Source of the DNA: Paenibacillus azoreducens
GTDB lineage: Bacteria; Bacillota; Bacilli; Paenibacillales; Paenibacillaceae
Length of the DNA: 64,000 nucleotides
Assembly: GCF_021654775.1 (NCBI RefSeq)
Contig: NZ_AP025343.1
Location: 5,113,501 to 5,177,500 of the forward strand
Reading direction: 5' to 3'
The notes beneath the pieces are model-generated. The model saw nothing but the letters and a program-made list of their open reading frames with translations. It did no database searches and was not told the DNA's origin. Positions 14,858 through 48,067 of the stretch are shown here, one piece after another (within the stretch, counting starts at the first letter, position 1; the number at the start of each line of letters is the position of its first letter). The translations under genes were made by a program, and so were the position numbers.

Positions 14858-14957
14858 CTAAAATAACCCCACAAAGTGGAGCCTATGCTTCGATGCTTAT
14901 TCCAAATACTTTGCGGGGACCCCCAAAAAAACTTATAAATTCTATACTGCCAAAAAA
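14858..14957 (+). repeat. Palindromic dispersed element A, copy 1
   Basis: The ends CCCCACAAAGT and ACTTTGCGGGG are mirrored around about 35 bases. A 98-base stretch is identical to copy 2 at 25856-25953. The right end runs straight into the A-tract of a minus-strand terminator. Confidence 0.85.
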
Positions 14958-14975
14958 GCCGGCTATGAGGCCGGC
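14951..14975 (-). terminator. Intrinsic terminator of the GNAT gene
   Basis: GCCGGC-N6-GCCGGC followed by six T on the minus strand, 31 bases after the stop codon of the gene at 15007. Element A copy 1 abuts the T-tract. Confidence 0.8.
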
Positions 14976-15006
14976 CTGCATTGTCAAACTGAAAATGCAT
15001 TGATTT

Positions 15007-15990
15007 TTAGAGTAGTTTGCAAACCATTTTGAAATTCCCGGGAGCGGCCTTAAAGCCCAACAAATCTCGGTTGATGCGGAGCATGGGAACGTTCATTGAA
15101 TCGTTATGCGTTCTCAGATAAGTTACATTGGAGGTACGCGCGGTCCGAATGGCCAGCATTTTTAACGCTAGACCGAGCCGTTGACGCCGGTATTCCGGCA
15201 GGACGCCGGTATATTGATGGTACATCGCCTGGGTCTGCTCGTTCTGCTGCAGGGTGACGACACCGACGTAACTTTCGCCGTCTTTAGCGATATGTATGTA
15301 CTCCGGCCTCACACCCGGAATGTCAATATTCCATTTTCGCCACTCTTCGAACCAAGGGAAATCCTCGTTGAATCCCGGGATATCCAGATGGGTTACCCGA
15401 TACAGCTCATGGAGCTTCCGTTCGTTTTCCTCACCCGGCTCATCCGCCAGTGTAATGAACCGAATACCCGACTGCTCGGCTGCACGGATGCTCTGGAACA
15501 ATTCCTCGTTTGTAAAAGCAGAAAGATTCAGCACGGATTCAAAGATGTGCCGTTCCTGCTGGTAACCCCGCCGCTGCGCAAACTCCAGCGAGGTTTCATC
15601 GTTATCCTTCATAAAACAGACCAAGCGAGAAGCCTTGACCTTCTGAGCCCATAAGCGAACTTCATTAGACAAGGCTCTGCCGGCTCCACGGCCGCGTTCA
15701 TCCGGATGAACAACTAGGGTGAGATTCAAATGGCCCGGTTCAGTCCAAGGGGCACGCCAAGCAATCGCATATCCAATGACCTCTCTTTGTTCATTCTCCG
15801 CCACCCACTTCGGTCGATCCCAGCCCATCAGTTGACCGTCATCGTTATAATGCAGTTGGCCCGGCGGGATACTATTTTCTTCATCCTGGAGCTGTTTGGC
15901 TGTTATTGGTTCCGACAAGATCAGATTGAGCAGCGAAGCGACTGCCGGGTAATCTTCATTGCGCAACGGGCGAATCGTATAGTTAGACAA
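15007..15990 (-). CDS. Tandem GNAT-domain acetyltransferase
   Basis: This 327-residue protein is built from two GNAT folds. The first (about 1-150) has the acetyl-CoA loop VVHPDERGRGAGRAL near residue 96. The second (about 170-327) has GVLPEYRRQRLGLALKMLAI near residue 265. Both pyrophosphate-binding loops look intact. The substrate cannot be read from the sequence; similar tandem GNATs include aminoglycoside-type and mycothiol-type enzymes. It is a single-gene unit with its own terminator. Confidence 0.85.
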   Translation of the reverse strand: MSNYTIRPLRNEDYPAVASLLNLILSEPITAKQLQDEENSIPPGQLHYNDDGQLMGWDRPKWVAENEQREVIGYAIAWRAPWTEPGHLNLTLVVHPDERGRGAGRALSNEVRLWAQKVKASRLVCFMKDNDETSLEFAQRRGYQQERHIFESVLNLSAFTNEELFQSIRAAEQSGIRFITLADEPGEENERKLHELYRVTHLDIPGFNEDFPWFEEWRKWNIDIPGVRPEYIHIAKDGESYVGVVTLQQNEQTQAMYHQYTGVLPEYRRQRLGLALKMLAIRTARTSNVTYLRTHNDSMNVPMLRINRDLLGFKAAPGNFKMVCKLL

Positions 15991-16202
15991 AATTAGATTT
16001 CCCCCAAATGAATAGAATTGGCTTTCGTCCTTATTATCTCATCCCTCGGTATACCTTTTGAGGTAGAGTTTGGGTATATTTTTTTATTCCCGCCGAAAAA
16101 ATCAAAAACTTTTTCACACAAATGCGTAAAAGCATGATAGTATAAAAGCATGGCAGCATTAAAGTTGATCTGCCGACAAATTAAATTATGGAGGTGTAAA
16201 GA

Positions 16203-16376
16203 ATGGCGACAATCATTCTGTACATGGCTTATTTGCTTGTTCCGGTGCTTAGCTTTTTGTTTATGTTCAAACTGCTCGACAACAATAATAAGAGAACACG
16301 GTATTCTGTCTACTATGCGTCCCTGATGTCGGCATTCTGCCTCATCGTGTTTTTGACGGGACCGCAAATTTCATAA
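16203..16376 (+). CDS. Small two-helix membrane protein
   Basis: This 57-residue protein is too short for most gene callers but has a GGAGGTG site 6 bases before the ATG and an intrinsic terminator after the stop. It begins MATIILYMAYLLVPVLSFLF and has two hydrophobic helices (about 4-24 and 40-55) joined by a basic loop KLLDNNNKRTRYS. I do not recognise the family. The clear translation and termination signals make a real gene likely. Confidence 0.7.
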   Translation: MATIILYMAYLLVPVLSFLFMFKLLDNNNKRTRYSVYYASLMSAFCLIVFLTGPQIS

Positions 16377-16395
16377 TTTCATATCGAACTTACCA

Positions 16396-16421
16396 GGGGC
16401 TGGATATCCAGCCCCTTTATT
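16396..16421 (+). terminator. Intrinsic terminator of the small membrane gene
   Basis: GGGGCTGGATATCCAGCCCC is a perfect palindrome, followed by TTTATTTATGTTT. Confidence 0.8.
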
Positions 16422-16509
16422 TATGTTTGTCAAGATATAACAAGGAATGTTCCTTGCGAAAGTGGAATTATATATTCCTGACCATACGGATATCCCGAGG
16501 TGATTTCTA

Positions 16510-16720
16510 ATGCAATTTCCGGACGCGAAACAATCAGCGGACTGCGGAATTCATGGACTATCGGTTGGATATGGAGGGCGACGACAAGGAATATTATGTT
16601 TCATGGGGTGATTCGGGGTCGGTAATTTCTTCATCCGCAAAGAAGATCCGCTTTTCCTCGATTTTTCAAAAGTACTCTACACATGGGATTGTTTGTGAAA
16701 AGGCAGTTGATGCGAAATGA
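16510..16720 (+). pseudogene. Probable frameshifted small ORF before the hydrolase
   Basis: An ATG at 16510 with GAGGTGA upstream opens a frame (MQFPDAKQSADCGIHG) that ends after 33 residues. A second frame, from an ATG at 16553, reads MDYRLDMEGDDKEYYVSWGD and on to a TGA at 16720 that overlaps the start of the next gene. Together they look like one gene of about 70 residues with a frame change near 16545-16555. I do not recognise the family. The second frame alone could be a 55-residue gene coupled to the hydrolase. Confidence 0.35.
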
Positions 16721-17559
16721 TGATTCATATGACTTACCGTTCAGGCGATTATAAAGTGAAGGGCTATCTATCCCTTCCTTACGGTTATAAGCTTGATCTG
16801 AATGAGCTGCAGGCACATGTGAGACAGCTTTACGGCGGTGCGGACATGCCGATGACAGCCATTTCCAGCAATATCATCCAAGAACAAAAGGATGTGTGCG
16901 AACAAAAATGGCCTGTCCTGATTTATTGCCGTGGCGGCATCGGCAGAGTCGGGCAGGTTAAAACCGAATGGCTGGAGCGGTTCTCCCGGTGCGGGTATAT
17001 CGTCTTTGCCCCCGTGTACCGCGGAACAGAGGGCGGGGAAGGCCGGGATCAGTTCGGTGGCGCAGACATGGAGGATGTCCCCGCAGCTTGCCGACTGCTT
17101 GCGGCCCTTCCATTCGTCGATCCATCACGCATCGCGGCGATGGGGTTTTCCCGCGGCTCCATCAACGCTGCCTTCGCGGCTGCTGAAACCGGGTGGATCT
17201 CGCAGCTTGTTCTTTGGGGCGGGGTTTCCGATCTCGCGAAGACGTATAAGGAACGGGTGGACTTGAGGCGGATGCTGAAGCGGGTCGTCGGTAATCCCAA
17301 TAAAAACCCGGGGGCGTATGCAGAGCGTTCCCCCATCCATATGGCCGAGCGAATCCGCTGTCCGGTGCTCATCATCCACGGCAGTGAAGATGAACAAGTA
17401 TATTCCAGCCACGGTCTGGGGATGTATCGCCGCTTGAAGGAGCTTGGAAAAGAGGCCGACCTCCATTGGTATGAAGGGTATGGCCACCACATGCCGCCCG
17501 AAATGCATATGCAGGCGATTGAAAGGATGTTTGCGTGGATCCGCGAACATGAACCTTAG
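16717..17559 (+). CDS. Alpha/beta hydrolase, prolyl oligopeptidase-like
   Basis: This 280-residue serine hydrolase has the nucleophile elbow GFSRGSINAA, the acid in HGSEDEQVYSSHG and the histidine in EGYGHHMPPEM, the order seen in dipeptidyl-peptidase/acylaminoacyl-peptidase hydrolases. The oxyanion-hole region is YCRGGIGRVG. No signal peptide is visible, so it is probably cytoplasmic. The start (ATGATG) overlaps the stop of the small ORF upstream; ribosome site strength is weak, which suggests coupling. Substrate is not predictable. Confidence 0.85.
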   Translation: MMIHMTYRSGDYKVKGYLSLPYGYKLDLNELQAHVRQLYGGADMPMTAISSNIIQEQKDVCEQKWPVLIYCRGGIGRVGQVKTEWLERFSRCGYIVFAPVYRGTEGGEGRDQFGGADMEDVPAACRLLAALPFVDPSRIAAMGFSRGSINAAFAAAETGWISQLVLWGGVSDLAKTYKERVDLRRMLKRVVGNPNKNPGAYAERSPIHMAERIRCPVLIIHGSEDEQVYSSHGLGMYRRLKELGKEADLHWYEGYGHHMPPEMHMQAIERMFAWIREHEP

Positions 17560-17593
17560 GTTCGGCGAAAATATTTTCGGCTTTCACCAAAAA

Positions 17594-17632
17594 AATGGCA
17601 GACCGCAGGGCTCGCGGAAACTGCCATTTTTG
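17594..17632 (+). terminator. Intrinsic terminator of the hydrolase gene
   Basis: ATGGCAG and CTGCCAT pair around 19 bases, followed by TTTTTG on the plus strand; an A-run on the other side allows use in both directions. Confidence 0.7.
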
Positions 17633-17745
17633 TATAATGCCCAACATAATGAATCCGGATCTTGCCTGCCGCTGCTGATTTAGTTCCTTCTACATGCCGA
17701 TCCCGATCTATTTCCTGACCGAAACGCGATTGATGAAGACGGAAT

Positions 17746-18453
17746 TCAAATGGTATATCCATGCACTCTTAACGTTTCGCGAAGCTCTGACGCCATAAGC
17801 CGATAACCTTCCGCATGTGGATGAAGTTCATCATCCGATAACCCATCGCGAAGCGTTAATCCATCCTCAGCCGTCATATGCCGGTGGAAATCGGCATACA
17901 TGCACCCATATGTCGCGGCCGTTTCACGGAGCTTGGCGTTTATGCGGACGATGCATTCATTGCGAATGCCATTCACTTCGCTTTGTGTTCGATTCGTCGG
18001 CAAAATAGAGCACAGCACAAGCGACTGTCCCCGCTGCTTGCATCGCTCTGCCATCTCGCCAATGTTTTGAACGACATGCTCTTCGATTTCTTCAGGGGCC
18101 CACAAATCCCTTTTTTGCACATAAGCGGGGTCCATCTTGAATAAGTCGTTGACGCCGATCAACATCACGATATGGTTCGGCTTCAACTGCAGCGCATCCG
18201 CCTCCAGCCGCTTGTTCAGGAACATGCAGGTATCCCCGCCCGCACCGCGGTTGATCATGGCTCCTTTCGCGGAAGAAAAGAAGGCCCCAAGCTCCCACAA
18301 ATTAATGATCGAATCGCCGATAAACAGGTAATCGATAGGCGTTTTCTCCGCGATCAGACATTCGTTTTTGCAGTCGTATTCCATCCTTCTCTGGTCCGCT
18401 GCCGCCTGCAGGGGCGAAAATAATCCTGGCTTGATCATATCCACTCTTGACAT
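17746..18453 (-). CDS. SGNH/GDSL-family esterase
   Basis: This 235-residue hydrolase shows the four SGNH blocks: IGDSIINLW with Ser48, INRGAGGDT with Gly, GVNDLF with Asn, and DELHPHAEGY with Asp and His. The ATG at 18453 has AAGGTGATT upstream; a longer open frame upstream overlaps the neighbouring gene and is not supported. No signal peptide is seen. It lies 37 bases downstream of the FAD oxidoreductase and is probably cotranscribed, which suggests joint processing of an acylated small molecule or sugar. Confidence 0.88.
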   Translation of the reverse strand: MSRVDMIKPGLFSPLQAAADQRRMEYDCKNECLIAEKTPIDYLFIGDSIINLWELGAFFSSAKGAMINRGAGGDTCMFLNKRLEADALQLKPNHIVMLIGVNDLFKMDPAYVQKRDLWAPEEIEEHVVQNIGEMAERCKQRGQSLVLCSILPTNRTQSEVNGIRNECIVRINAKLRETAATYGCMYADFHRHMTAEDGLTLRDGLSDDELHPHAEGYRLMASELRETLRVHGYTI

Positions 18454-18490
18454 CCAATCACCTTCCCGGGAATTTGCTGTAAGCAAGACC

Positions 18491-20047
18491 TTAACGCTGC
18501 CCGTAAAATTCATGCGGCCATTCCAGCTCAACCCCAGCTTCGCGAAGAATCTGCTGAAAATCGTGCAGTGCCTGATCGTTCTCCCTTACCTCAGCGGGCT
18601 TTAACCCATGCCTGATGCAATATGCCGCAAGCTCTCCACATGATTCGCCGATATTCCATTCCGTTGGATGAAGGCGGTAGCACCCATTCGTAATATGCGT
18701 GGTCCCGATATTTTTATTGCCTGCCAGCACATTGTCCATATCCATCGGAATCAAGGCTCCAAGAGGAATGTGATACGGAAGCGCCGGGATATCGACGTAA
18801 GGGACGCCGGTGAAGCTGGGGTGCAGATCGATGCTGTAGGCGCCGACGCCGACCCGGTCCTCGTATTTCTTGCCGGATTTCTCGGAACGGCACGCCGGCG
18901 ATACTTCTTGCTCCGTAATCGTATACAATGCCTTGATCCGTCTGGACTCCCGGATATATGGAGCTTTGGCCAGGCCTGTCTCCGTTCCCATTACATCGCC
19001 GCGCAACCGCAGTCCCGGATACCCTTTTCCGCCGTCGGGCCTTGGCGCTTCCGTCTGCAGCCAATAGACCAGCGAAAGACTGAGCTGCTGCGAACCGTAA
19101 AGATGTTTTTCCTTTTCTTCCTTCGACACCCCGTAAATATTGCCGATGAAATAATCGTTTTGCGGCCAATTAAGCAGAGTGATGTCATTTGCATCCTTCG
19201 CGTCGTATTGCTCTTTGGCATAGATCCGGCGGTACTTCCAGAGCGAAAACTTGTCGCCATCCTCGAATATGGCGTATTCCCTCGGCTGCATATTTACAGG
19301 ATTCGGGCCGATGAGACTCAACATTTTACCAGGCCAGTGAGGAGGCTGATATTCTTTCCAGAATTCATACATTTCGGGCTTTGGAATAACATGGTCTCCG
19401 GTTTCGTCATATTCAAGGGAAAGCACATAAGTAAAACCCTGAATATTATTCGGATCGGCTTCATCCGCAGCATGTGCCTCGCCTGTCACGGAGCGGCTTT
19501 CCGAACCGGTGACGTAGTCCATCGAAGCAAGCGGGAGGATATCTCCCGTTTCCGTCGCATCGATGAAATAACGCCCCTCTACTTTCAACCGCCTACCGGT
19601 TTTTAAAGACAGCAGTTCGGCGCTTTGAAGCGATCTCCCGGTTCGTTCCACGGATACCGCCACGGTCTCAAGCAGAAGAGTCAGCCTTCCCGTCAGCAAA
19701 TGAGGAGCCAGCATTTCATTCAATACATGCAGCGATACCCTGGGATCATGAGCAATTCTGCTGACAGTAGCTGCTCCCGGGTTAAAGAACTCGCTCCGCG
19801 CAGAGATTGCAACAGGCATGTTTGCCAAATAAAAAGAGCGGATAGCATTGCGATATTGACGATATCTGGCCGTACAGCCGAACTCTTCGATCCAGGCATG
19901 CTCGTCCGGAGGAACCGCCTGCGAAGTGCTTTGCCCGCCGATCCAGTCCGTCTCTTCCGTCATCAATACCTTCAACCCTTTGGAACAAGCAGCCGCAGCA
20001 GCTGCGCAGCCACCCAGTCCTCCCCCGAAAATGATCAAATCAAACAT
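18491..20047 (-). CDS. FAD-dependent oxidoreductase (FAD_oxidored family)
   Basis: This 518-residue flavoprotein starts with the dinucleotide-binding motif FGGGLGGCAAAAAA, followed by the TEETDWIGGQST segment typical of the xanthan-lyase-associated FAD_oxidored family. A second conserved block, GRYFIDATETGDIL, lies near residue 160, and NKNIGTTHITNGCYRLHPTE lies near the C terminus. No signal peptide is visible. Family members often sit in polysaccharide utilisation loci, but the substrate is unknown. It precedes and probably shares an operon with the SGNH esterase. Confidence 0.88.
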   Translation of the reverse strand: MFDLIIFGGGLGGCAAAAAACSKGLKVLMTEETDWIGGQSTSQAVPPDEHAWIEEFGCTARYRQYRNAIRSFYLANMPVAISARSEFFNPGAATVSRIAHDPRVSLHVLNEMLAPHLLTGRLTLLLETVAVSVERTGRSLQSAELLSLKTGRRLKVEGRYFIDATETGDILPLASMDYVTGSESRSVTGEAHAADEADPNNIQGFTYVLSLEYDETGDHVIPKPEMYEFWKEYQPPHWPGKMLSLIGPNPVNMQPREYAIFEDGDKFSLWKYRRIYAKEQYDAKDANDITLLNWPQNDYFIGNIYGVSKEEKEKHLYGSQQLSLSLVYWLQTEAPRPDGGKGYPGLRLRGDVMGTETGLAKAPYIRESRRIKALYTITEQEVSPACRSEKSGKKYEDRVGVGAYSIDLHPSFTGVPYVDIPALPYHIPLGALIPMDMDNVLAGNKNIGTTHITNGCYRLHPTEWNIGESCGELAAYCIRHGLKPAEVRENDQALHDFQQILREAGVELEWPHEFYGQR

Positions 20048-20538
20048 GTTTTCTCCAGCTCCCTTCCCTCTTCATTTCGTCTTACAGCATTTAAGATATG
20101 TCTGGGCAGCAGCATGCAGTATGGCAGTATGTTAGAATCATTTTTTGTTACCGTTTTCAAATCAATCTGCAAGCCTGCAGTTCCCCTTCTAAGTACGGGG
20201 GATGAAAAGCCGTCCCCTTTGGCACAATAAGTCCGTGTATATCAAAGATGTTATGGGTATTATATGGCCTTTTGGAGGAAAAGTACACTTGTTTGTCGAA
20301 AAAAGAATAAATTCTCCAGATTTCATAAATTCCCTCGCGTCCTCAAAACCACTTTTACGAAAAACAGCCGGGCGCCATCATCTAGTAATACGCACACGCC
20401 AGCTCAAGCATCTTCAGGAAATAAAGTTTAAAAAAATGTAACGACATTTTGTCATAATTGTCATAAATAGCGTATCTATTCCATTCTTGTTGATGTTCTG
20501 ATAGACTTCATTTGTATCATGTTTTATAAGGAAGGGGG
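20048..20538. other. Intergenic region without a supported gene
   Basis: About 490 bases separate two divergent genes. A 79-codon open frame at 20202-20441 has a biased composition, no convincing ribosome site and no recognisable motif, so it is not called. AT-rich DNA from 20440 to 20530 probably holds the lipoprotein promoter. Confidence 0.5.
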
Positions 20539-21138
20539 ATGAAGTTGCTGCCCAAAGCATCTTTTAAGATTATTGGCATGATGATTGCGGCGTGCTTCCT
20601 GCTGACTTCCTGTTTGCAGCATCCTGAGTCAGTCAAGATGAATGTAGCGCAGAAAAAAGCTGAGTGGCCCAATAGCGAAGTCACACGCGAGAGTGTGCAG
20701 CTGGCTCTGGAAGACGCGTCAGGCGATGGCGTGATCGGCATTAAGCGAGCCAAAGATATCCAGCTCCAAGGGGCAAACAACAAAACGGTTACGGTAGACC
20801 TGAAACATGAAAGCAAAGATCCGGACCGATTGATGAAAGAAGCTTCGGAGACGCTTATTCATTACAGTAAAATCCTGCTGAAAAACAAAGGCATAGGTAC
20901 GGTGGAAATTTGCATGTTCGGCAATCCGGACCCTTACGGAGGCAAATCCGTCAGTAAAGAAACGGTAAGAATCGCAATTAACCGCGAGGACTTGCAAAAG
21001 GGGCAGGATGCATGGAAATCGCCTGTGGAAAATTACGTCACCATTTTCAGGCATGCAAGTTGGTACAAAATCCACCCGCGCCTGTATAAACATCTTCTTC
21101 ACAAAGAGCAATTAAAAACGAGAGATTATCTAAAATAA
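20539..21138 (+). CDS. Putative lipoprotein of unknown function
   Basis: This 199-residue protein begins with a basic n-region, a hydrophobic helix and a lipobox LLTSC ending at Cys25, so it is expected to be lipid-anchored outside the membrane. The mature part is polar, with an early segment KAEWPNSEVTRESVQLALED. A later region, AINREDLQKGQDAWKSP, suggests a single small domain. I do not recognise the family. AAGGAAGGGGG precedes the ATG, and a terminator follows the stop codon directly. Confidence 0.75.
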   Translation: MKLLPKASFKIIGMMIAACFLLTSCLQHPESVKMNVAQKKAEWPNSEVTRESVQLALEDASGDGVIGIKRAKDIQLQGANNKTVTVDLKHESKDPDRLMKEASETLIHYSKILLKNKGIGTVEICMFGNPDPYGGKSVSKETVRIAINREDLQKGQDAWKSPVENYVTIFRHASWYKIHPRLYKHLLHKEQLKTRDYLK

Positions 21139-21174
21139 CGGATGCGTCAAAAACCGGCGCGTCCGTTATTTTTG
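21133..21174 (+). terminator. Intrinsic terminator of the lipoprotein gene
   Basis: AATAACGGA and TCCGTTATT pair around a loop of about 17 bases, followed by TTTTG. It overlaps the stop codon region. Confidence 0.75.
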
Positions 21175-21399
21175 TTGTCGTGCCTCGGTTATCCCGGCGG
21201 TCATCATGGCGGCCACGGCACGGACATGAAGGACCTGAAAGTATCGCCGGCGCAGGCCTCGGCTCGGCCAACCAAAATCCGTATTTTTTCGTTCGCTGTA
21301 ACGTTTTCATTTACATATTATTGTAATGATCCCTGTTTTATCGCATATGATCTTTACGTACCCTCATGTTGGCATCGATTTTAAACGGAGGTGTGTTGG

Positions 21400-24485: not shown

Positions 24486-24491
24486 CTAACA

Positions 24492-25855: not shown

Positions 25856-25953
25856 AAAATAACCCCACAAAGTGGAGCCTATGCTTCGATGCTTATTCCA
25901 AATACTTTGCGGGGACCCCCAAAAAAACTTATAAATTCTATACTGCCAAAAAA
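25856..25953 (+). repeat. Palindromic dispersed element A, copy 2
   Basis: Identical over 98 bases to copy 1 at 14860-14957. The right end again runs into the T-tract of a minus-strand terminator. Confidence 0.85.
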
Positions 25954-25979
25954 AAACCGGCTCCCGCAGGAAGCCGGCC
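25948..25979 (-). terminator. Intrinsic terminator of the GNAT gene
   Basis: CCGGC(T)-type arms CCGGCT and AGCCGG around nine bases, followed on the minus strand by nine T. Confidence 0.75.
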
Positions 25980-26450: not shown

Positions 26451-26568
26451 CTTATAACCTCCATGTCATTTAGTTATTCTCATGCTTTCCGTTCCGTTAC
26501 TTTAACCTGCCTTATGAAAAATTTCAACTTTTATCAGGCCCAATTCTGAAATTATTTCTTGACATTTA

Positions 26569-26605
26569 CGAGGTAGCCGCTACGGTTACGGATCGATCTG
26601 CCGAT
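26569..26605. repeat. Dispersed repeat C, short copy
   Basis: CGAGGTAGCCGCTACGGTTA, followed by CGGATCG and TTCCGAT-like bases, matches the fuller copy at 57301-57350 and the diverged one at 55759-55800. Confidence 0.6.
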
Positions 26606-26647
26606 ATTGAGCCTTTTTCAAACTCATTGATTCCAGGCATGAATGAT

Positions 26648-26662
26648 ATGCCAACGTGGCAT
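26648..26662. promoter_or_regulatory. Inverted repeat upstream of the MFS gene
   Basis: ATGCCA-ACG-TGGCAT is a perfect palindrome about 90 bases before the MFS start. It could be an operator for an unseen regulator. The same motif was not noticed elsewhere in the window. Confidence 0.3.
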
Positions 26663-26750
26663 TGAAAACAGTTTACATATAGGCGTACACTTGATTAAGA
26701 AAGAAAAATGCTATGTTTTCATATTTTTTCACGGAAAGAGGCTTTACATC

Positions 26751-27947
26751 ATGAGTTATATCCAGCACGGGACGTCAGCTTTCCGCAAAACAAGCCTAGC
26801 CTTGTTCGCGGGGGGTTTTAACACGTTTGCTATTCTTTATTATACTCAGCCGCTGCTGCCTGAGTTCTCCAAGGAGTTCGGCATTCCGCCGGTAACAGCC
26901 AGCCTGTCGCTATCGCTCACGACGCTGGTTCTGGCCTTCAGCATGATTATTGTCGGCTCGCTCAGCGAATCCTGGGGACGCAAGCCGATTATGGCTTCCG
27001 CAATGGTTACCGCATCCATTCTGACGCTGATCACCGCCTTCGCCCCTAACTTTCATACGTTGCTTGTATTCCGAATCATTCTGGGTGCCGTATTGGCCGG
27101 GCTTCCCGCCATTGCCATGGCTTATCTCGGCGAAGAAATTGCTCCGTCCAGCCTGGGCGCAGTAATGGGGCTGTATATTAGCGGCAACTCCATCGGCGGC
27201 ATGGGCGGACGGGTGATCACCGGCATTTTCACCGATTTGTGGAACTGGCGTATCGCTGTTGCCGTCATCGGGTTGCTTGGACTGATCTTCAGTGTATTTT
27301 TCGTGATTTTACTGCCGCCATCCCGCCATTTCCATGCGCGTCCATTGCGCTTTAAATCTCTGCTGCACTCGCTGGGCAGCCAGTTTAAAGATCCGGGAAT
27401 GGTGATTTTGTTTACACTTGGATTTTTGCTTATGGGCAGCTTTGTGACGCTGTACAACTATATTGGATACCAACTGATTGCGCCCCCTTATTCCTTGAGC
27501 CAAACCGTCGTCGGCTTTATTTTCATCGTATATATTGCGGGGACCTTCAGTTCCACATGGATGGGGAAAATGGCTGATACGCATGGAAGACCTTTGATGC
27601 TAGGGATCGGACTTTTGGTCTTCCTCTCCGGCGCATTGCTGACGTTAAGTCCGCTGCTTGCTGTCAAAATTGCCGGTATCATCATTTTCACGTTCGGGTT
27701 CTTCGGTGCCCACTCCATCGCCAGCTCTTGGATCGGCATCAGGGCTACGCATGATAAAGCCCAGGCTTCTTCGCTGTACCTTTTCTTTTATTATGGAGGT
27801 TCCAGCATCGGAGGTACTTTGGGCGGAACGTTCTGGGGCATGTACGGCTGGAACGGCGTGATCGGCCTCATCGCCAGCTTCTTGGTCGTCGCGCTGATGC
27901 TGTCCTTGCTGCTGGCCCGGCTTAATCATCAAAAAGCGGTTGCGTGA
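26751..27947 (+). CDS. MFS transporter (YnfM-like)
   Basis: This 398-residue major facilitator has about 12 transmembrane segments. Motif A is GSLSESWGRKPI near residue 73 and a second copy, GKMADTHGRPLM, lies near 270; the opening AILYYTQPLLPEFSKEFG is the pattern of the YnfM/AraJ drug-efflux branch. The ATG at 26751 follows GGAAAGAGG with long spacing; an open frame upstream lacks the family. Likely a proton-coupled exporter; substrate not known. Confidence 0.87.
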   Translation: MSYIQHGTSAFRKTSLALFAGGFNTFAILYYTQPLLPEFSKEFGIPPVTASLSLSLTTLVLAFSMIIVGSLSESWGRKPIMASAMVTASILTLITAFAPNFHTLLVFRIILGAVLAGLPAIAMAYLGEEIAPSSLGAVMGLYISGNSIGGMGGRVITGIFTDLWNWRIAVAVIGLLGLIFSVFFVILLPPSRHFHARPLRFKSLLHSLGSQFKDPGMVILFTLGFLLMGSFVTLYNYIGYQLIAPPYSLSQTVVGFIFIVYIAGTFSSTWMGKMADTHGRPLMLGIGLLVFLSGALLTLSPLLAVKIAGIIIFTFGFFGAHSIASSWIGIRATHDKAQASSLYLFFYYGGSSIGGTLGGTFWGMYGWNGVIGLIASFLVVALMLSLLLARLNHQKAVA

Positions 27948-30629: not shown

Positions 30630-30712
30630 TAAAATAACCCCACAAAGTGACGCGTGACCTTCGAAACTTATTCCGATTACTTTGCGGGGACCCCCGGAAA
30701 TTCATACTAAAA
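30630..30712 (+). repeat. Palindromic dispersed element A, copy 3
   Basis: Same ends as the other copies (CCCCACAAAGT and ACTTTGCGGGG), with a diverged centre GACGCGTGACCTTCGAAAC. It follows a plus-strand gene; no obvious terminator stem touches the right end, unlike most copies. Confidence 0.75.
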
Positions 30713-30912
30713 CAGCCCGGCAGCCGCAGGTTGAACGGTGACCCGCAAGGAGCGTCACTTTTACGGCATGTCCGGCAAACGGGCGAACCGTCAGCAGTAA
30801 GAAGGACATCGTTCAAATCAGCGCGACAAGGCTGTTCAGTTCAAACCTATGTTTTTTACAGAGAAACTGATTCCCCCGTCTTCCTGCCGGGGTTTTCGTT
30901 TTCCTTTGCGTA

Positions 30913-34354: not shown

Positions 34355-34490
34355 CAAAATAACCCCACAAAGTGTATCGGAAAGAAGTCCGACGCCTGAA
34401 GGGCGCTTTTGCGAAGCAAAAGTACTGAGTGGAGCCTATGCTTCGATGCTTATTCCAAATACTTTGCGGGGACCCCAAAAAACTTATATA
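34355..34490 (+). repeat. Palindromic dispersed element A, copy 4 (long form)
   Basis: This copy has the usual ends but carries 57 extra bases (34375-34431) after CACAAAGTG. The extra part contains GCTTTTGC/GCAAAAG arms and is bordered by AGTG on both sides. The remainder matches copies 1 and 2. Confidence 0.8.
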
Positions 34491-34578
34491 ACACCCCCAC
34501 AAAGTGAAGCCTTTGCTTCGATGCTTATTCCAATTACTTTGCGGGGACCCCAAAAAACTTATAAAATTCTATAATTGC
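34491..34578 (+). repeat. Palindromic dispersed element A, copy 5
   Basis: A short-form copy starts directly after copy 4 in the same orientation, giving a tandem pair. Its right end enters the T-tract of the terminator of the EamA gene. Confidence 0.8.
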
Positions 34579-34612
34579 AAAAAAAAAGCCTGCGGCTTTA
34601 AGCCGAGGCTCT
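34577..34612 (-). terminator. Intrinsic terminator of the EamA gene
   Basis: On the minus strand AGCCT(C)GGCTT pairs with AAGCC(GC)AGGCT, followed by nine T. Confidence 0.65.
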
Positions 34613-41257: not shown

Positions 41258-41296
41258 TAATCATATATGGCGGTGACCGTCAGGCCATGTTTGATT

Positions 41297-41502: not shown

Positions 41503-41520
41503 AGTATATTTGAGCCCCAG

Positions 41521-41700: not shown

Positions 41701-41749
41701 TGCTGGCGGCTCTTTGGTTGACCTGTTCATACTCTTGAAGCGGATCGAC

Positions 41750-41896
41750 TAAAATAACCCCACAATGAGTATCGGAAAGAAGTCCGACGCCTCTCACGGA
41801 GGGGCGCTTTTGCGGAGCAAAAGTACTGAGTGACGCGTAGCCTTTGAGCTTATTCCGATTACTTTGCGGGGACCCCGGAAGTTTATACTTAAAAAA
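41750..41896 (+). repeat. Palindromic dispersed element A, copy 6 (long form)
   Basis: The ends are CCCCACAAtGAG and ACTTTGCGGGG, with an internal block related to that of copy 4 (TATCGGAAAGAAGTCCGACG). The right end runs to AAAAAA and a terminator stem (GGATG/CATCC) for the DinB gene. Confidence 0.75.
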
Positions 41897-42126
41897 GGAT
41901 GCTCCCCCTCTCTTCTGCAGAGCGTGGGAACATCCTTCTTATCTTCCTGCACCTGATCGGCTGCAGTCCCGTTCGATCAATCCGCAATGTCGTAAGGCGC
42001 CTTCTGCGCTTGTTGTTCCAAGAAAACCAGGTTAACCGATGGCGGGATGCCGGCAACTCACACAAAGCCGCATCCTTTCGCAAAAAAGGCCTGACGGCAG
42101 GTCTCCTTTCACTCACTGAAGCGGGA

Positions 42127-42588
42127 TTATGCAGTGGCTGTTATGTATCCTTTGATTTGCGCCATATGATGCCGGTCATGTTCGTAAAAATCCAGCAAAT
42201 ACTCATCGACGGATAATGTATCCTCATATTTATAGGCGTATTCCGCTTCCGGAATGTTTTGCAGCACTTCAAGCAACTGCTGCCGTGCATCCACGGTTTG
42301 CGAAATCAAAGCTTCCTTGCTTTGCGTCAGCCCGTAAGCAGCCGCATCGCGGTTGAATTCGTTGAAATCTTGATTTTTCAATGTCATGGGCCGATGTTCG
42401 GCCATCGGGCACACGGCATTCTCCAGAAAATATTTGTCCCAAAGCATGATGTGGCTGACAATATCCCGCGGCGACCATTTGCCTTCCGCGATCGGTCCCG
42501 TCCACTTCTCCTCAGGCAGATCCATCAATGATTGGGCAAACGTTATCCATTCCGCATAAGCTTCCAGTTTCTCCTGCTTCGTATACAT
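42127..42588 (-). CDS. DinB-superfamily protein
   Basis: This 153-residue four-helix-bundle protein has the pattern HIMLWDKYFLE (near 46) and a C-terminal YEHDRHHMAQIKG whose histidines with the first His form the likely metal site. The DinB/YfiT-like family contains thiol transferases and damage-inducible proteins; the role here is not known. AAGGAGGAG precedes the ATG. Confidence 0.85.
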   Translation of the reverse strand: MYTKQEKLEAYAEWITFAQSLMDLPEEKWTGPIAEGKWSPRDIVSHIMLWDKYFLENAVCPMAEHRPMTLKNQDFNEFNRDAAAYGLTQSKEALISQTVDARQQLLEVLQNIPEAEYAYKYEDTLSVDEYLLDFYEHDRHHMAQIKGYITATA

Positions 42589-42676
42589 TGGCGCTCCTCC
42601 TTGGCATAACCAATTTGTAATTTCCCTTTCCTGATTATACCATCGGCCGCAGGACGAAACAAGAACATTTGTTTGC

Positions 42677-43420
42677 CTATTGCTGTTTATTGTCCATTAA
42701 GTTCCTCATCTTCCGGTAAGCTTCATGCGTGCCCAGATCATAGCTGGTTCCCTCGGCAAAAAATGCCTTCATTTCTTTTATGCGCGACAGCCATTCCGGA
42801 AAATGGCCGGGTGCATCCGGCTCATGACCAGCCTGCAAATAATCCCTGAATAAAGGCAGCGTCTCTTTCCGGTACAGATAAATCGCAAACACTCCGACAT
42901 CCGTTTTGGGCTGCGCCGGCTTTTCCTTAAACGACAGCACCCGCTGCGAAGCATCCAGTTCCGCCACGCCCACTCTTCTTAGTTCATCCTGATCCTGCAT
43001 GCGCTGAACAAGGATGCAGTCCTTCTGCTCCCGCAAAAAATACTCCACATACGAGTTCAAATCAAACGTAAACACATTATCGCCTGCGCACACGAGCAAA
43101 TCCTCGTCGATGCCTTCGCTTTCGATCGCAAACCCGATATCGCCGATGGCTCCAAGCCGATTCTGTTCGGAAGTGGAGCCGTCATTGATGATTTTTACGG
43201 TTTTTTTGAAAGAACGGGATTCCATCCATTTCCCAAAAGCTGCATAAAATTTGGCGTTGGATACAATAATGATTTCTGTAATGGAAGCAACGTCCTCCAT
43301 TTTGCGTATGATCAGGTCCAATACCGTTAGATCGCCTAAAGGGAGCAGGGATTTCGGCAAGTTGCGGGTCAGCGGATACAATCTTGTCGCATAACCCGCA
43401 GCCAGAATAAGAGCTTTCAT
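42677..43420 (-). CDS. Sugar-phosphate nucleotidyltransferase
   Basis: This 247-residue GT-A-fold enzyme begins MKALILAAGYATRLYPLT, the nucleotide-binding signature, followed by KSLLPLGDLTVLDLI. ACAGGAGGC lies before the ATG. DNVFTFDLNSYVEYF and VGVFAIYLYRKETLPLF are typical of UTP/dTTP sugar transferases. It has no carbohydrate operon around it, so the sugar is unclear. The LicC branch (choline-phosphate cytidylyltransferases) is a less likely alternative. Confidence 0.85.
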   Translation of the reverse strand: MKALILAAGYATRLYPLTRNLPKSLLPLGDLTVLDLIIRKMEDVASITEIIIVSNAKFYAAFGKWMESRSFKKTVKIINDGSTSEQNRLGAIGDIGFAIESEGIDEDLLVCAGDNVFTFDLNSYVEYFLREQKDCILVQRMQDQDELRRVGVAELDASQRVLSFKEKPAQPKTDVGVFAIYLYRKETLPLFRDYLQAGHEPDAPGHFPEWLSRIKEMKAFFAEGTSYDLGTHEAYRKMRNLMDNKQQ

Positions 43421-43466
43421 AGTGCCTCCTGTACAATTTATTCTCCTACTCCCAGTATAACTTGAA

Positions 43467-44279
43467 TTACAGCAGCAAGCTTCTTTTTCTGAAAAGAATC
43501 ACGCCCGCGGCAAAACCGGCCAAACCGACGCCCAGCAAAATGGCAACCACCGGACCCCAGTGAACCGTGCCTTTGACGATCTCTGCGGTATTAAAGAGCG
43601 AAAACAGGGAAATATTTTTCATCCAAGCCAGCTGATCGCTGATCTTACCCAATAGATTCAGGCTGAAAAAACCGAATACGATCACGCCGGAGATTCCGAG
43701 CGCCCTTTTCTCATCATTCGAAACCGCCGAAATAAAAAAGCTGATGCCGCAAACCGCGAAAAAAAGCAAAAACGCGCCAATGTTCAGCTGTAAAAATGCT
43801 TTGGAATCAAAATCGGAGAGGTTCCCGATAAACCACGCGTACCCTCCGTAACCGGCAAGCGTCGTCACCGCCGTAATGACCAGCAAGCCTGTAAGGAGAA
43901 CGACAGCTTGGGTCAAAGCCACTTTAACGCGCGTCGTTGGCGCGGACAGCAGATATGCCATGGAGCCTTGATCAACGAGCCGGGCCATCAATTGGGTGGA
44001 AGTCATGATGCTGAATATGGAAAGAATAAGCACAAACAGCAGTCCGTAATATTCTCCGGAAATAAAAGAATCAACGGTGCCGAAACCATTCTCCAGTCCA
44101 AACGCCCTGCCGATTCCTTCAGGCATGGATGCAATAAGCTCGTTCAAGCTTGCCGACTGTTCCATGATGCTTGGGTAGATTCCGAACATCAGCAAAATAT
44201 AAAAAGCCGAACCAAAAGCATAACTCGTCATCGTACGCAGGTGATTTTTCAGCATTTGTCCATATAACGGCATATTCAT
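43467..44279 (-). CDS. ABC-2 type transporter permease
   Basis: This 270-residue permease has six hydrophobic segments (for example YAFGSAFYILLMFGIYPSI and the C-terminal VVAILLGVGLAGFAAGVIL). The long extracytoplasmic loop after the first helix (EQSASLNELIASMPEGIGRA) is typical of ABC-2 exporters. Its start overlaps the end of the ATPase gene by 4 bases, so it is coupled. Confidence 0.88.
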   Translation of the reverse strand: MNMPLYGQMLKNHLRTMTSYAFGSAFYILLMFGIYPSIMEQSASLNELIASMPEGIGRAFGLENGFGTVDSFISGEYYGLLFVLILSIFSIMTSTQLMARLVDQGSMAYLLSAPTTRVKVALTQAVVLLTGLLVITAVTTLAGYGGYAWFIGNLSDFDSKAFLQLNIGAFLLFFAVCGISFFISAVSNDEKRALGISGVIVFGFFSLNLLGKISDQLAWMKNISLFSLFNTAEIVKGTVHWGPVVAILLGVGLAGFAAGVILFRKRSLLL

Positions 44280-45166
44280 ATCAGACCTCTTCCTTCCCGG
44301 TCATAATAATCCATAAATATATCCTCTAAATTTTGGCTAAACACATCGATGCTGCGGATTTGGTATTTCGCTGTTTCCCTGACAAAATGGTTATAGTCGC
44401 CCTGCACCGACACGCGCACCTGATTGCCTTTATAGGAATCGACGTTCAGGCCGCTGGCAAGAAACGCATCCCGGTCCGCTTCATATTCGAAAGTAACTTC
44501 AAACAGCTTCCGCTGCACCGCCTGCAGTTCATGGATATTTTTGACGGCAATGATCCTTCCGTCTTTAATGATCGCCGCCCGGTCGCATGTGCGCTCGATT
44601 TCCGGAAAGCTGTGGGAAGACATCAGAAAGGTGGTGCCTTTCGCTTTTTCCTCAAGAACCAGTTCGATAAACACCTTCTGCATCAGCGGGTCCAAACCTG
44701 ACGTCGGTTCATCCAAAATGATCACCTCAGGCTCATGCATAAAAGCGGCGACGATACCCACCTTCTGCTTCATGCCTTTGGACATTTTACGAATCGGGGT
44801 TCTGTCATCAAATTGCAATCTTTGGATCAATTCGGCCCTGCGCTGCGGGTTGACTCCGCCCCGTAAACCAGCTAAGAAGTCTAGAAAAGATTTGCCCGTC
44901 ATCCCTTCCATAAATGCGATCTCTCCCGGCAAATACCCAACCAGCTTCTGAAATTTGCCTTGATCCTTCCAGGTATCCAAGCCATGGATTTGGACGTATC
45001 CTTTCTCCGGCTTCATAAAACCCATAATATGGCGGATCGTTGTTGACTTGCCCGCCCCGTTAGGGCCGAGAAATCCGAATACCTCCCCTTTGTGGACGGT
45101 AAAAGAGACGTCGTAAATCCCTTTACCGCCCGGAAATACTTTGGTTACATGTGACACCGTTAGCAT
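44276..45166 (-). CDS. ABC transporter ATPase
   Basis: This 296-residue ATPase has Walker A GPNGAGKST near residue 35, the signature SKGMKQKVG and Walker B VIILDEPTSGLD. The order and size match ABC-2 exporters of the drug or bacteriocin-immunity type. GGGAGGC precedes the ATG. It leads the two-gene operon, and the divergent TetR gene with an operator-like repeat in the gap is likely its regulator. Confidence 0.92.
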   Translation of the reverse strand: MLTVSHVTKVFPGGKGIYDVSFTVHKGEVFGFLGPNGAGKSTTIRHIMGFMKPEKGYVQIHGLDTWKDQGKFQKLVGYLPGEIAFMEGMTGKSFLDFLAGLRGGVNPQRRAELIQRLQFDDRTPIRKMSKGMKQKVGIVAAFMHEPEVIILDEPTSGLDPLMQKVFIELVLEEKAKGTTFLMSSHSFPEIERTCDRAAIIKDGRIIAVKNIHELQAVQRKLFEVTFEYEADRDAFLASGLNVDSYKGNQVRVSVQGDYNHFVRETAKYQIRSIDVFSQNLEDIFMDYYDREGRGLI

Positions 45167-45262
45167 AGCCAGCGCCTCCCGTTGTGGGAATGAATTTATG
45201 AAATATAACCAATCACATATTTCACAACCAGATCATACGCCGGAGAAATCACCGCGTCAATA

Positions 45263-45300
45263 TAATTATGAAATATTTTTATGATATAATTTCATTATTA
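45263..45300. promoter_or_regulatory. TetR operator candidate
   Basis: TAATTATGAAAT and ATTTCATTATTA are mirrored at 11 of 12 positions around 14 bases. It covers the extended -10 (TGATATAAT, 45282-45290) of the TetR gene, so repressor binding would block that promoter. Confidence 0.65.
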
Positions 45301-45328
45301 GACGGCGGCAGCCGGGGACGGAGTTGAA

Positions 45329-45937
45329 ATGCAAATGAATGGTTTTGAGCGTAGAGCAAGGCAAATTAAGGGCAAAATTAAAGAAACCACTTTAAACATG
45401 TTATCCACGTCCAGCATGAAGGAAATCCGAATTGCGGATATCGCCAGGAAAGCCGGGGTTTCCCAGGTAACGATTTATAATTATTTCGGCAGCAAAGAAG
45501 CTTTGATCCGGGAAATCTTTCTGGAATTCATGGAATCGATTTTGGACGAATTCGAGGCGGTTGTAACTGGGGAAGCCGCATTAAAAGAAAAAATCGAATT
45601 CATCATTTTGCAAAAGAAAAAAAACTCCCATTCTTTTCATCCCTCCGTCATTGCGGAGCTGATGGAAAATGATTCTGAAGTCCGGGTTATGGTGCAAAAA
45701 AATTATGAAGAGCGCAGCTTGCCTTTAGTTGTCGAACTTCTAACCAAAAGCAAGGCAAACGGGGAGATTTCAAACGATATTTCCATCGATACGGTCATGC
45801 TCTATCTGAATATGCTTTATGAATCCTCGCATCGTATGCTGGAATCCATTCAGTACGAAGAAGATCAGGAAAAACTGATCGAAGAGATGGTCCAAGTATT
45901 TTTTTATGGTATTTGTGGACCGCAGACCCAAAAATGA
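45329..45937 (+). CDS. TetR-family regulator
   Basis: This 202-residue regulator has the TetR HTH IRIADIARKAGVSQVTIYNY near 31-50 followed by FGSKEALIREIF. The C-terminal ligand domain is not family-specific. GGAGTTGA precedes the ATG. Divergent from the ABC operon, with a palindrome in the gap; probable repressor of the exporter and itself. Confidence 0.9.
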   Translation: MQMNGFERRARQIKGKIKETTLNMLSTSSMKEIRIADIARKAGVSQVTIYNYFGSKEALIREIFLEFMESILDEFEAVVTGEAALKEKIEFIILQKKKNSHSFHPSVIAELMENDSEVRVMVQKNYEERSLPLVVELLTKSKANGEISNDISIDTVMLYLNMLYESSHRMLESIQYEEDQEKLIEEMVQVFFYGICGPQTQK

Positions 45938-45965
45938 TTAACATTATGTTAAACCTATGTTAATT
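45938..45965 (+). promoter_or_regulatory. PhoP-box-like direct repeats upstream of ltaS
   Basis: TTAACA-N5-TTAAAC-N5-TTAATT repeats every 11 bases, the PhoP pattern. A SigA-like promoter follows (TTTTCA 45971-45976, 17 bases, TATAGT 45994-45999), so the repeats sit at an activator distance. The same bases also form a palindrome TTAACAT-T-ATGTTAA. Confidence 0.45.
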
Positions 45966-46052
45966 TAGTATTTTCATTATGTAAAAAAGCTAATATAGTA
46001 TTGATTAGTATGTGGAGAGGGAAAAATTTACATACTCACGAAAGGAGTCAGA

Positions 46053-47924
46053 ATGCTCGACTTTACCATACGTTCAAAACCTAAGACACCAGTCATCGCA
46101 GTATTTGTTTTGCTGATGCTGAAACTTTTGCTTCTACGCTATTTTTTCTTCCACGGGATCATGTGGAGCCGCATCGCAGTGGATGCTGCGTCGCTTGTCG
46201 TGCTCCTTTCCCTAATCGAGCTCATCACACCTTCCAAAGCGAAAGGAATCGTGTATTGGATATTCAATTTGCTGTGCTCGTTTATCTTTTTTGCATCGGC
46301 ACTGTACTTCCAGCACTTCAATACCGTGCCGACCTACACCGCCCTGTTCGAGTTAAAGCAGGTGGGACAGATCAAAAGCAGCGTGCAATCCACGATTGAA
46401 CCGGCAAACTATCTCTTTTTTGTCGACGTCGTTGTGATTGCTCTGGCGTGGGCGATCAGTAAACTGATAAAACGCAAATTCAGCATGTCCACGCCGCTGC
46501 GCAAAAGATGGCCGGCTGTACTTGGCGTCATCGCTCTGGCGGTATCCATCTTTTTCATCCGTCAGGACCGCATGATCACCAATGAAGTGCTTCAGGCGGA
46601 GCATCTTGGTTTCTTTAATTACCAGGTCGCTGCCGGGCTCAGAGCCAAAGAGGAAGCGGCAGTCGTCGCATTTGGCAATATCGAAGAAACCGTGGACAAA
46701 ATCAATACCCAGGAAAAAAACTTTAATTACCAGGATCAACTGCAGAAGAAACCGAAGTTTTTCGGAGCGGCCAAAGGCAAAAATGTAATCGTGATCCAGA
46801 TGGAGGCTTTTCAGAATTTTCCGATCCATCTGTCCGTCGACAATCAGGAACTGACCCCTGTGCTGAATGGTCTGGCCAAGGATAGCTTTTATTTCCCGCG
46901 GGTATTCCAGCAGATTGGACAAGGCAACACCTCCGATGCCGAGTTTATGAGCAACACGTCGATCTATCCGACGGCAACGGTCGCCATGTCTACCGGTTAC
47001 GGTGATCGCGAGCTGCCAAGCATGCCGCGCCTGCTTGAGAAACGAAATTACGAAGCGGATACGTTCCATGTGAACGACGTCAAGTTTTGGGATCGGAACA
47101 AGCTGTATCCCGCTTTGAATTTCACCAATTACTACGATAAACCTTATTATAAAAACGATCATTTTAATGAATTTGGAGCTTCCGATGAGGAGTTATACAA
47201 ATTCGGCATTGAAACTTTGTCCAAGCTGCATCAGGAACATAAACCGTTTTATGCGCAGTTTATTACCGTATCAAGCCATTTCCCGTTCAATGTGCCGGAA
47301 GACCGGATGAAAATAACGATTCCGGATTCCCTAAAAGACACGCAGCTCGGCAATTATCTGGCGGCTGTCAATTATACGGATTATGCGATCGGAACTTTGA
47401 TTGACCAGCTGAAGCAAAACGGAATGTGGGACGATACCGTGCTCGTCATTTATGGCGACCATTTCGGCCTGCAGCCGCAGGACAACGATCCGGAAATGGT
47501 CAGTCAGGCGCTCGGCATCAAATATGATCCGCGGGTCACACGTTTTAATATTCCGCTCATTATCCATGTGCCCGGTGTGCAAGGCCAGGAAGTGAAGCGG
47601 GTCGGCGGACAGGTAGACATTATGCCGACGCTTGCCAACCTGCTTGGAATCTCGCTGAAAGACGAGAATTTCACCGCTTTCGGCCATGACCTGCTTAACA
47701 TCGATCACAACATCATAGGCAGCCGTTATTATTTGCCGAGCGGTTCCTTCTTTAATGATGAAATCATGTACGTCCCGGGCAAAACGTTTGAGGAAGGCGA
47801 CGCGGTCAATCTGGACACGCTGGATCCTGTCGAAGACTTCTCCAAATACCGTAAAGATTATGATTACAACTTGGCGCAGATGAAACTTTCGGACGAATAC
47901 GTCAAGCTTCTGCCTAAACGATAA
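46053..47924 (+). CDS. ltaS: Lipoteichoic acid synthase family protein
   Basis: This 623-residue protein has five N-terminal transmembrane helices (to about 170) and an extracellular sulfatase-fold domain. The catalytic Thr293 lies in GQGNTSDAEFMSN, with Glu251 in VIQMEAFQNF and a metal site in LVIYGDHFG. It polymerises glycerolphosphate from phosphatidylglycerol onto a glycolipid anchor, or is a close paralogue such as YfnI/YqgS. AAAGGAGTCAGA precedes the ATG. A PhoP-like repeat upstream suggests phosphate control. Confidence 0.9.
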   Translation: MLDFTIRSKPKTPVIAVFVLLMLKLLLLRYFFFHGIMWSRIAVDAASLVVLLSLIELITPSKAKGIVYWIFNLLCSFIFFASALYFQHFNTVPTYTALFELKQVGQIKSSVQSTIEPANYLFFVDVVVIALAWAISKLIKRKFSMSTPLRKRWPAVLGVIALAVSIFFIRQDRMITNEVLQAEHLGFFNYQVAAGLRAKEEAAVVAFGNIEETVDKINTQEKNFNYQDQLQKKPKFFGAAKGKNVIVIQMEAFQNFPIHLSVDNQELTPVLNGLAKDSFYFPRVFQQIGQGNTSDAEFMSNTSIYPTATVAMSTGYGDRELPSMPRLLEKRNYEADTFHVNDVKFWDRNKLYPALNFTNYYDKPYYKNDHFNEFGASDEELYKFGIETLSKLHQEHKPFYAQFITVSSHFPFNVPEDRMKITIPDSLKDTQLGNYLAAVNYTDYAIGTLIDQLKQNGMWDDTVLVIYGDHFGLQPQDNDPEMVSQALGIKYDPRVTRFNIPLIIHVPGVQGQEVKRVGGQVDIMPTLANLLGISLKDENFTAFGHDLLNIDHNIIGSRYYLPSGSFFNDEIMYVPGKTFEEGDAVNLDTLDPVEDFSKYRKDYDYNLAQMKLSDEYVKLLPKR

Positions 47925-47933
47925 TGAGTATGG

Positions 47934-48067
47934 CAAAATAACCCCGCAAAGAGTATTGGAAAGAAGTCCGGGCGCCTCTCACAGAGGGATGCGAAGCAAA
48001 AGTACGGAGTGACGTATAGCCTTCGAAGATTATTCCGATTACTTTTCGGGGCCCCCGGATATTACAA
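47934..48067 (+). repeat. Palindromic dispersed element A, copy 7 (long form)
   Basis: Ends CCCCGCAAAGAG and ACTTTTCGGGG with an internal block related to copies 4 and 6. It starts 10 bases after ltaS and runs into a bidirectional terminator. Confidence 0.7.

Follow-up and report, generated by a model that had tools for sequence, protein, structure and literature searches.

A dispersed palindromic element of Paenibacillus azoreducens that lies behind intrinsic terminators and is biased by replication direction

A 64,000-nucleotide (nt) stretch of the Paenibacillus azoreducens genome (NCBI RefSeq assembly GCF_021654775.1, contig NZ_AP025343.1), hereafter the window, holds seven copies of a short palindromic element beside intrinsic transcription terminators, which raises the question of what the element is and how it came to lie there. 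The window spans positions 5,113,501–5,177,500 of a single 7,316,152-base contig. Our analysis gives good support to an element that is mobile and non-autonomous, that targets terminators and whose entry depends on the direction of replication. Three of the observations described below, a replication-strand bias, matching junctions and relatives in ribosomal RNA (rRNA) spacers, go beyond the initial annotation of this DNA.

All seven copies reported in the initial annotation are present at their positions, each on the plus strand (Table 1). The shared mirrored ends hold for most of them, with a left arm CCCC(A/G)CAAAG and a right arm ACTTTGCGGGG, but copy 6 has CCCCACAATG as its left arm and copy 7 has two mismatches within the 16-base right-arm probe. 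With this probe (ACTTTGCGGGGACCCC, up to three mismatches) the window yields seven matches, against 0.44 expected and a maximum of three in 100 shuffles. Copies 1 and 2, 11 kb apart, are identical over 98 bases, as had been noticed. Plus-strand RNA folds of the individual copies reach z-scores of −1.0 to −4.5, but copies 3 and 7 are unremarkable. At each of the six sites in the window, copies 4 and 5 sharing one, a terminator hairpin identified by reading the sequence borders the element's A-run. The contact with terminators proposed earlier is therefore real, and copy 5, arranged head-to-tail with copy 4, separates it from the terminator, but the exception made for copy 3 was wrong: its tail continues into AAAACAGCC...GGCTGTT of a terminator at 30711–30836. 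A simple terminator detector placed three of the six sites above threshold and one below, leaving copies 3 and 6 unscored (long loop and bulge).

The family extends across the whole 7.3-Mb genome, where the right-arm motif ACTTTGCGGGGRCCCC, with at most one mismatch, has 304 matches (151 forward, 153 reverse) and the reversed motif none. The 98-nt form of copies 1 and 2 matches 53 times; nine matches are 100% identical, and at least 40 are at least 91 nt long at 97–100% identity, a lower bound obtained by scoring 40 of 374 first-look candidates. These near-identical dispersed copies mark a recent burst. A profile search of a contiguous 1.264-Mb sample (an 800-kb run, a 400-kb run and the window) gave 100 matches (E ≤ 1) at 73 sites: 60 two-armed short forms, 32 long forms, three without the left side and five without the right; 92 of the 100 have both arms. 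TAACCCC at the left end is near-constant; the tail, from the right arm to the A-run, varies in length and content among copies and defines two subfamilies, here named A and B. The long form carries an extra internal module, flanked in copy 4 by two AGTG repeats and itself duplicated in some copies, which may be a separate hairpin unit nested within the element. This module (AGTATCGG..AAAGTACTG, ~64 nt) is tandemly duplicated at L054, own chromosome 5,538,967 and 5,579,061. The copies examined carry no gene between the arms, and no Rfam family reaches its gathering score in the window copies or in 18 loci, where only chance-level matches fall below it.

Relatives retain the terminators in element-free form, as expected if the element was inserted. 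At the copy 3 site, all eight relatives read have an element-free terminator, seven of them with an identical stem sequence; at the site of copies 4 and 5 the element is absent and the terminator kept in eight of eight, and at the copy 7 site in five of six. Five relatives read at the copy 2 site also have the terminator without the element, comparable on the downstream side only. The longer flank matches of these relatives are 69–86% identical, and the orthologous junctions are unclear for copy 1 and unresolved for copy 6. The sixth relative at the copy 7 site, G079, holds a different insert (contig 152, ~26,525–26,975; L222) directly on the same terminator A-run, so this landing site has been used twice by different elements.

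Contact with terminators extends beyond the window. At the 73 sites of the contiguous sample, the same detector finds a terminator at 20 of 65 sites co-directional with replication, compared with 20 of 1500 random positions; bulged and long-looped hairpins that can be seen in the sequence escape it, so 20/65 is a low figure. All 30 young copies inspected touch an A-run of at least six. In five of them the side away from the terminator holds an older element or tail, on which rests our reading that younger copies usually lie nearer the terminator; in L027 another right arm is found on the terminator side, at a distance of 231 nt.

The orientation of the element follows replication. We assigned the replication arms from GC skew, which is positive in 29/29 first-arm segments and negative in 12/12 second-arm segments, the exact origin and terminus being unlocated. 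Among the near-identical copies, 39 of 40 are co-directional (the exception is at 1,414,020), as are 65 of the 73 sampled sites, one of the other eight overlapping a co-directional site. For comparison, 411 of the 654 terminators predicted in this sample and 688 of its 978 open reading frames (ORFs) are co-directional; against these two baselines, 65 of 72 sites correspond to binomial p values of 1.3e-7 and 4.6e-5, respectively. An element lies directly behind the T-tract of 39 of 411 co-directional predicted terminators and of none of the 243 head-on ones (Fisher p = 1.1e-8), bearing out the preference for terminators that the window had suggested; elements in flipped orientation occur at one co-directional and two head-on terminators. 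An earlier element-centred sample, analyzed with another detector, contained 72 co-directional elements and four head-on. The 39-to-0 split makes entry into single-stranded lagging-template DNA directly testable, and terminators would represent standing, reusable landing sites whose use reports replication direction. Counted over loci with a clear single-strand call, the element sits on the G-poor strand at 56 of 57 scored own loci (L001–L060, 60 loci, several overlapping), at 49 of 63 in other Paenibacillaceae (89 loci) and at 22 of 28 in G080, G082 and G091 (29 loci).

Could the copies be ordinary tandem terminators, kept by selection and never mobile? Read on the terminated strand, the hairpin precedes a TTATTTT and resembles a second terminator. 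Against this stand the identical 98-nt copies at unrelated places and the avoidance of head-on terminators, for which selection of this kind gives no reason, and the element-free terminators of relatives contradict it; we find the explanation hardly credible.

The junctions carry a further signature. We compared the bases preceding the left and right A-runs of 36 young subfamily-A copies. The base immediately before the run is the same on both sides in 27 of them, and the last two agree in 12 (permutation p ~5e-5 for each). Unusual junctions are concordant on both sides: TGAAA in L261, TCAAA in L026, TTAAAA in L030 and TCAAAA in L045. For young copies this match supports a target duplication of ~5 nt, YAAAA on the plus strand. 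Copies from other genomes show the same junction base in 19 of 29 cases against 12.4 in shuffles (p = 0.007; two rows are L213 of the own genome), with no significant excess for the last two bases (5/29, p = 0.19). Junctions match by eye at five of the six window sites. Recombination among existing hairpins, or slippage during replication, would require no mobility enzyme and could produce the tandem arrays seen among the 100 places listed (period 66–72 nt, up to six units), but it leaves the 36 different young-copy sites with matching junctions unexplained and is very unlikely.

In our interpretation, the element is probably a family of short, non-autonomous mobile DNA whose copies enter T-tracts that become exposed when they lie on the lagging-strand template. 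Read along the terminated gene, the conserved arms of the hairpin into which one strand would fold are CCCCGCAAAGT...ACTTTGTGGGG. New copies would be inserted immediately after an intrinsic terminator, at the 3′ terminus of its T-tract (TTTTR), provided that this strand serves as the template of the lagging strand and is single-stranded with the terminator hairpin exposed. Entry would duplicate ~5 nt (YAAAA on the plus strand), and the T-tract would stay reusable, usually leaving a younger copy between the terminator and an older one. We infer that entry is single-stranded and that the enzyme acts in trans. As to the copying step, the mechanism we think most likely, and hold only tentatively, is target-primed: the 3′ end of the T-tract would be extended along a transcript of the element by a reverse transcriptase (RT). 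A DNA-level transposase of unknown type is about as likely. In the stem, the strand read along the terminated gene has G.T where the opposite strand has A.C, and DNA folding of three copies slightly favors the terminator-sense strand over the other (−9.9/−7.8, −22.8/−21.1 and −22.8/−21.8 kcal/mol). This difference fits a folded lagging-strand template, as weak evidence because the rRNA copies described below keep A.C in the transcribed strand.

Several results weigh against this interpretation. None of the eight head-on sites has a terminator according to the detector, so some copies arrived another way, and in the earlier sample an element lies within 80 nt of two of 106 head-on terminators (21 of 212 co-directional ones). 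Outside Paenibacillaceae there is no strand bias (11 versus 10 of 21 scored loci, from 31). Among older own copies the junction match falls short of significance (10/22 versus 7.6 shuffled, p = 0.17), stricter small sets give 3/6 and 5/9 without a signal, and copy 1 of the window is mismatched. For RT in particular, the number of RVT_1 matches does not correlate with strict motif matches over 100 genus genomes (Spearman 0.14, p = 0.16; 0.12, p = 0.25 with the own genome excluded). G007, G035, G081 and G091 have at least 10 strict matches and zero RVT_1; G004, G016, G021, G033, G034 and G036 have at least four RVT_1 and zero strict matches. Finally, the truncated copies show no excess at the far end (three left-, five right-truncated), unlike many target-primed systems.

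RT counts, which do not track the copies, give no support to RT as the driver, and truncation of the far end in the manner of long interspersed nuclear elements is not seen. The own genome has 14 RT matches. Ten RT loci were read, and six of them are near-identical introns of ~1.89 kb (L066–L071) that by eye start just behind terminators. Nine of the ten group II intron-type loci are co-directional and thus occupy the same niche as the element; at L069 the T-tract and an old copy of the element are separated by the intron. G000, G042 and G082, whose listed copies are alike by eye, each have at least one RVT_1 match, and in G082 (one RVT_1, no match to the Y1 transposase family) the copies are by eye more alike than those of G080 or G091. 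Class IIC group II introns target terminators (PMC7923331, available in part). The element resembles group II introns of this habit in its site just behind a terminator hairpin and in its co-directional bias, and it shares one site with a resident group II intron in L069, but it carries no RT and no intron family appears among the Rfam matches.

Eukaryotic short interspersed nuclear elements (SINEs) lack terminal inverted repeats, duplicate their target, end on one side in an A-run entered at T-tracts and can have a relative in the rRNA operon. The element is alike in these respects and unlike SINEs in that far-end truncation is missing and RVT_1 counts give no sign of dependence on RT. A bacterial SINE counterpart, that is, a small structured RNA, related to the hairpin that follows 23S rRNA, copied by target-primed reverse transcription in trans into lagging-template terminator T-tracts with a 5-nt duplication and with copies stacked by age at each terminator, is a speculative proposal to which we give a low probability. 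If RNA-mediated copying were true, it would represent a SINE-like class in bacteria, and we know of no such class.

The initial annotation likened the target preference of the copies to that of some transposon ends and of palindromic elements derived from the IS200/IS605 insertion sequences (ISs). Movement in trans by a Y1 HUH transposase acting on the hairpin, as for IS200/IS605-type or REP/REPIN-type elements (REP, repetitive extragenic palindromic sequence; REPIN, its hairpin-forming doublet), would fit the hairpin ends and tandem arrays. Lagging-strand entry of the IS200/IS605 family is described in PMC6006769 (available in part), and the element shares with this family and its palindromic derivatives both the hairpins and the lagging-strand orientation bias. 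The G.T pairs of the terminator-sense strand, where the other has A.C, fit as well, and old copies may outlive their enzyme. The resident enzymes point the other way. No Y1 transposase or RT match occurs in the window, which is in line with the earlier remark that no transposase accompanies the copies, as far as these two types go; other transposase types were not searched for. The own genome has five Y1 loci in two ISs, and the ends of both ISs are unlike those of the element. A tail-like match of 26 nt borders one of these ISs on the outside (L061).

Across genomes, the Y1 family (PF01797) matches 17 of 30 genus genomes chosen for many or zero strict motif matches. It is missing from six element-rich ones, G080 (53 strict matches), G091 (30), G082 (26), G092 (23), G007 (16) and G079 (16), and outside the genus it is found in six of 19 motif-bearing genomes and not in the other 13, genome completeness being unstated; PF01797 may miss diverged Y1 members. 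A Y1 transposase was rejected as the driver because its occurrence does not track the copies. A target duplication is unexpected for the IS200/IS605 family, whereas junction bases match in 27 of 36 young copies (not significantly in older own copies). The IS200/IS605 derivation is not supported by these findings, and we judge a Y1-driven element improbable.

A similar picture emerges from REPINs and their REP-associated tyrosine transposases (RAYTs), which the element resembles in its short hairpins with conserved arms and a variable middle, its many copies, its clusters and its lack of an internal gene (PMC3116915, available in part). The terminator T-tract target, the junction duplication and the element-rich genomes without a Y1 match set it apart. 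No gene flanked by the repeat recurs in the manner of RAYT, gene families lying beside at most 10 of 129 loci and the five own Y1 genes residing in ISs with other ends. In place of GTAG or GTGG 5′ of the hairpin foot, the printed copies mostly have GGGGT or GGGGC.

Another possibility is a miniature inverted-repeat transposable element (MITE) mobilized by a terminator-preferring DDE insertion sequence. The ~5-nt target duplication, found in young copies and in other genomes, and the inverted arms speak for it. Against it, an arm forms the end of the element on the left only, the right arm being followed by a tail whose length varies. The autonomous partner it calls for did not appear either. 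A left arm lies within 400 nt of 208 of 225 right arms; short windows around the remaining 17 show no full element, several being decayed or cut by eye and L179 unrelated, and their flanks were not searched for genes. Within 2.5 kb of copies in 129 loci (window excluded) we clustered 669 ORFs; the largest cluster covers 10 loci and reads like a transporter permease, the next six, and others at most four. We consider a DDE-driven MITE rather unlikely.

A relative of the element occupies rRNA operons. Among 100 genus genomes, 85 contain the exact 23S end, and by a strict pattern 39 of the 100 have a hairpin with the element arms behind the end of the 23S rRNA; the own genome has it at 9/9 exact 23S ends. 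A profile built from 19 own dispersed copies matches all 20 rRNA loci examined, with a best E per locus of 8e-14 to 6e-7, and the middle part of 22 spacers gives alignment scores of 10–17, against a mean of −0.2 and a highest score of 7 in 880 shuffles. Judged from these alignments, the 23S-spacer hairpin is homologous to the element in arms and middle. It differs from the dispersed copies in its sense orientation within the operon and in compensatory C-G to A-T changes: one stem pair is A-T in 14 of 22 scored spacers, C-G (as in dispersed copies) in four and an unpaired A-C in four, next to an A.C mismatch identical in 22/22. The hairpin is found without a strict dispersed match in G001, G019, G027, G050 and G064, and in many genomes it occupies only some operons (1/10 exact 23S ends in G007, 6/10 in G018, 1/9 in G027). 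Such partial occupancy is compatible with loss and with insertion into the spacer alike. Either the rRNA hairpin or the dispersed element may therefore have come first, and the former was rejected as a proven source of the latter.

Further relatives are found both within Paenibacillaceae and in other phyla. The exact 16-mer occurs in at least 120 stretches of genome contigs and, by the same exact rule and among the matches listed, a mirrored arm lies within 120 nt in 69 of 89 stretches inside Paenibacillaceae and in 25 of 31 outside. One Propionibacteriaceae genome bin accounts for eight of these 31, and among the rest are Sphingomonas, Tsuneonella, Clostridia, Paludibacteraceae and Chitinilyticum. 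Arms common to several phyla point to a widespread recognition factor. The two-arm pattern is also found in nine viral contigs, compared with 0, 1 and 0 for three scrambled arm pairs; one of the nine, L198, includes the end of a 23S rRNA and probably derives from a chromosome. A conserved AGGAGGAACAACGGAG-like stretch follows the hairpin in L168, L170 and L191 (Clostridia-type bins) and in L197, L199, L200 and L204 (viral contigs), pointing to a larger repeat that shares the arms. In a Sphingomonas bin (L095, 6419–6434) the hairpin is located just downstream of a transfer-messenger RNA gene (match 6494–6834), and L184 is alike by eye.

The literature on Paenibacillus repeats, on terminator or lagging-strand targeting and on SINE-like bacterial elements yielded no description of the element, most subscription journals lying outside the coverage. 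Publications matching the arm letters concern other subjects, as judged by title among the matches listed.

Table 1 Element copies and adjoining terminator hairpins in the window (window coordinates).
Feature	Position	Strand	Details
Copy 1, subfamily A, short form	14860..14957	+	Left AAAA 14860–14863; element 14864–14951; right A-run 14952–14957; junction bases T vs C, unequal
Terminator hairpin adjoining copy 1	14958..14975	-	
Copy 2, subfamily A	25856..25956	+	Element 25860–25947; CAAAA each side
Terminator hairpin adjoining copy 2	25957..25977	-	5 relatives: terminator without element (comparable downstream side only)
Copy 3, short form, short tail	30630..30712	+	Element 30635–30708; TAAAA each side
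Long-loop terminator behind copy 3	30711..30836	-	By reading, unscored by detector; element-free terminator in 8 relatives
Copy 4, long form	34355..34476	+	Left end 34360; internal module ~34374–34431; right arm 34461–34476
Copy 5, short form, head-to-tail stack between copy 4 and terminator	34493..34587	+	Terminal A-run 34579–34587
Terminator hairpin behind copies 4 and 5	34588..34609	-	Element-free terminator in 8 relatives
Copy 6, long form	41750..41896	+	Left end 41755; module ~41769–41832; TAAAA each side; A-run 41891–41896
Bulged terminator hairpin adjoining copy 6	41897..41935	-	By reading, unscored by detector
Copy 7, diverged long form	47934..48070	+	Left end 47939; module ~47953–48011; CAAAA each side; A-run 48066–48070
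Terminator hairpin adjoining copy 7	48071..48101	-	5 relatives without insert; G079 with different insert

A second palindromic family (AAGAAAAACGTC..GACGT..AGACAGACCGC..GCGG..TTTTTCTTGCG) is present at L049, at L072, near 5,257,550 of the own chromosome and in the flank of L061. It occupies some of the sites used by the element, frequently adjoining it, and a tail resembling TTTATACTTTCTGATATG is common to both.

Two Rfam matches lie elsewhere in the window. A 5_ureB_sRNA match (59907–60196, plus strand) is opposite a 573-residue minus-strand reading frame (58639–60360) and may, as a guess, reflect only conservation of a urease gene. A ylbH leader (53.5 bits, cut-off 50) is located at 14705–14796 on the minus strand, ~60 nt from copy 1.

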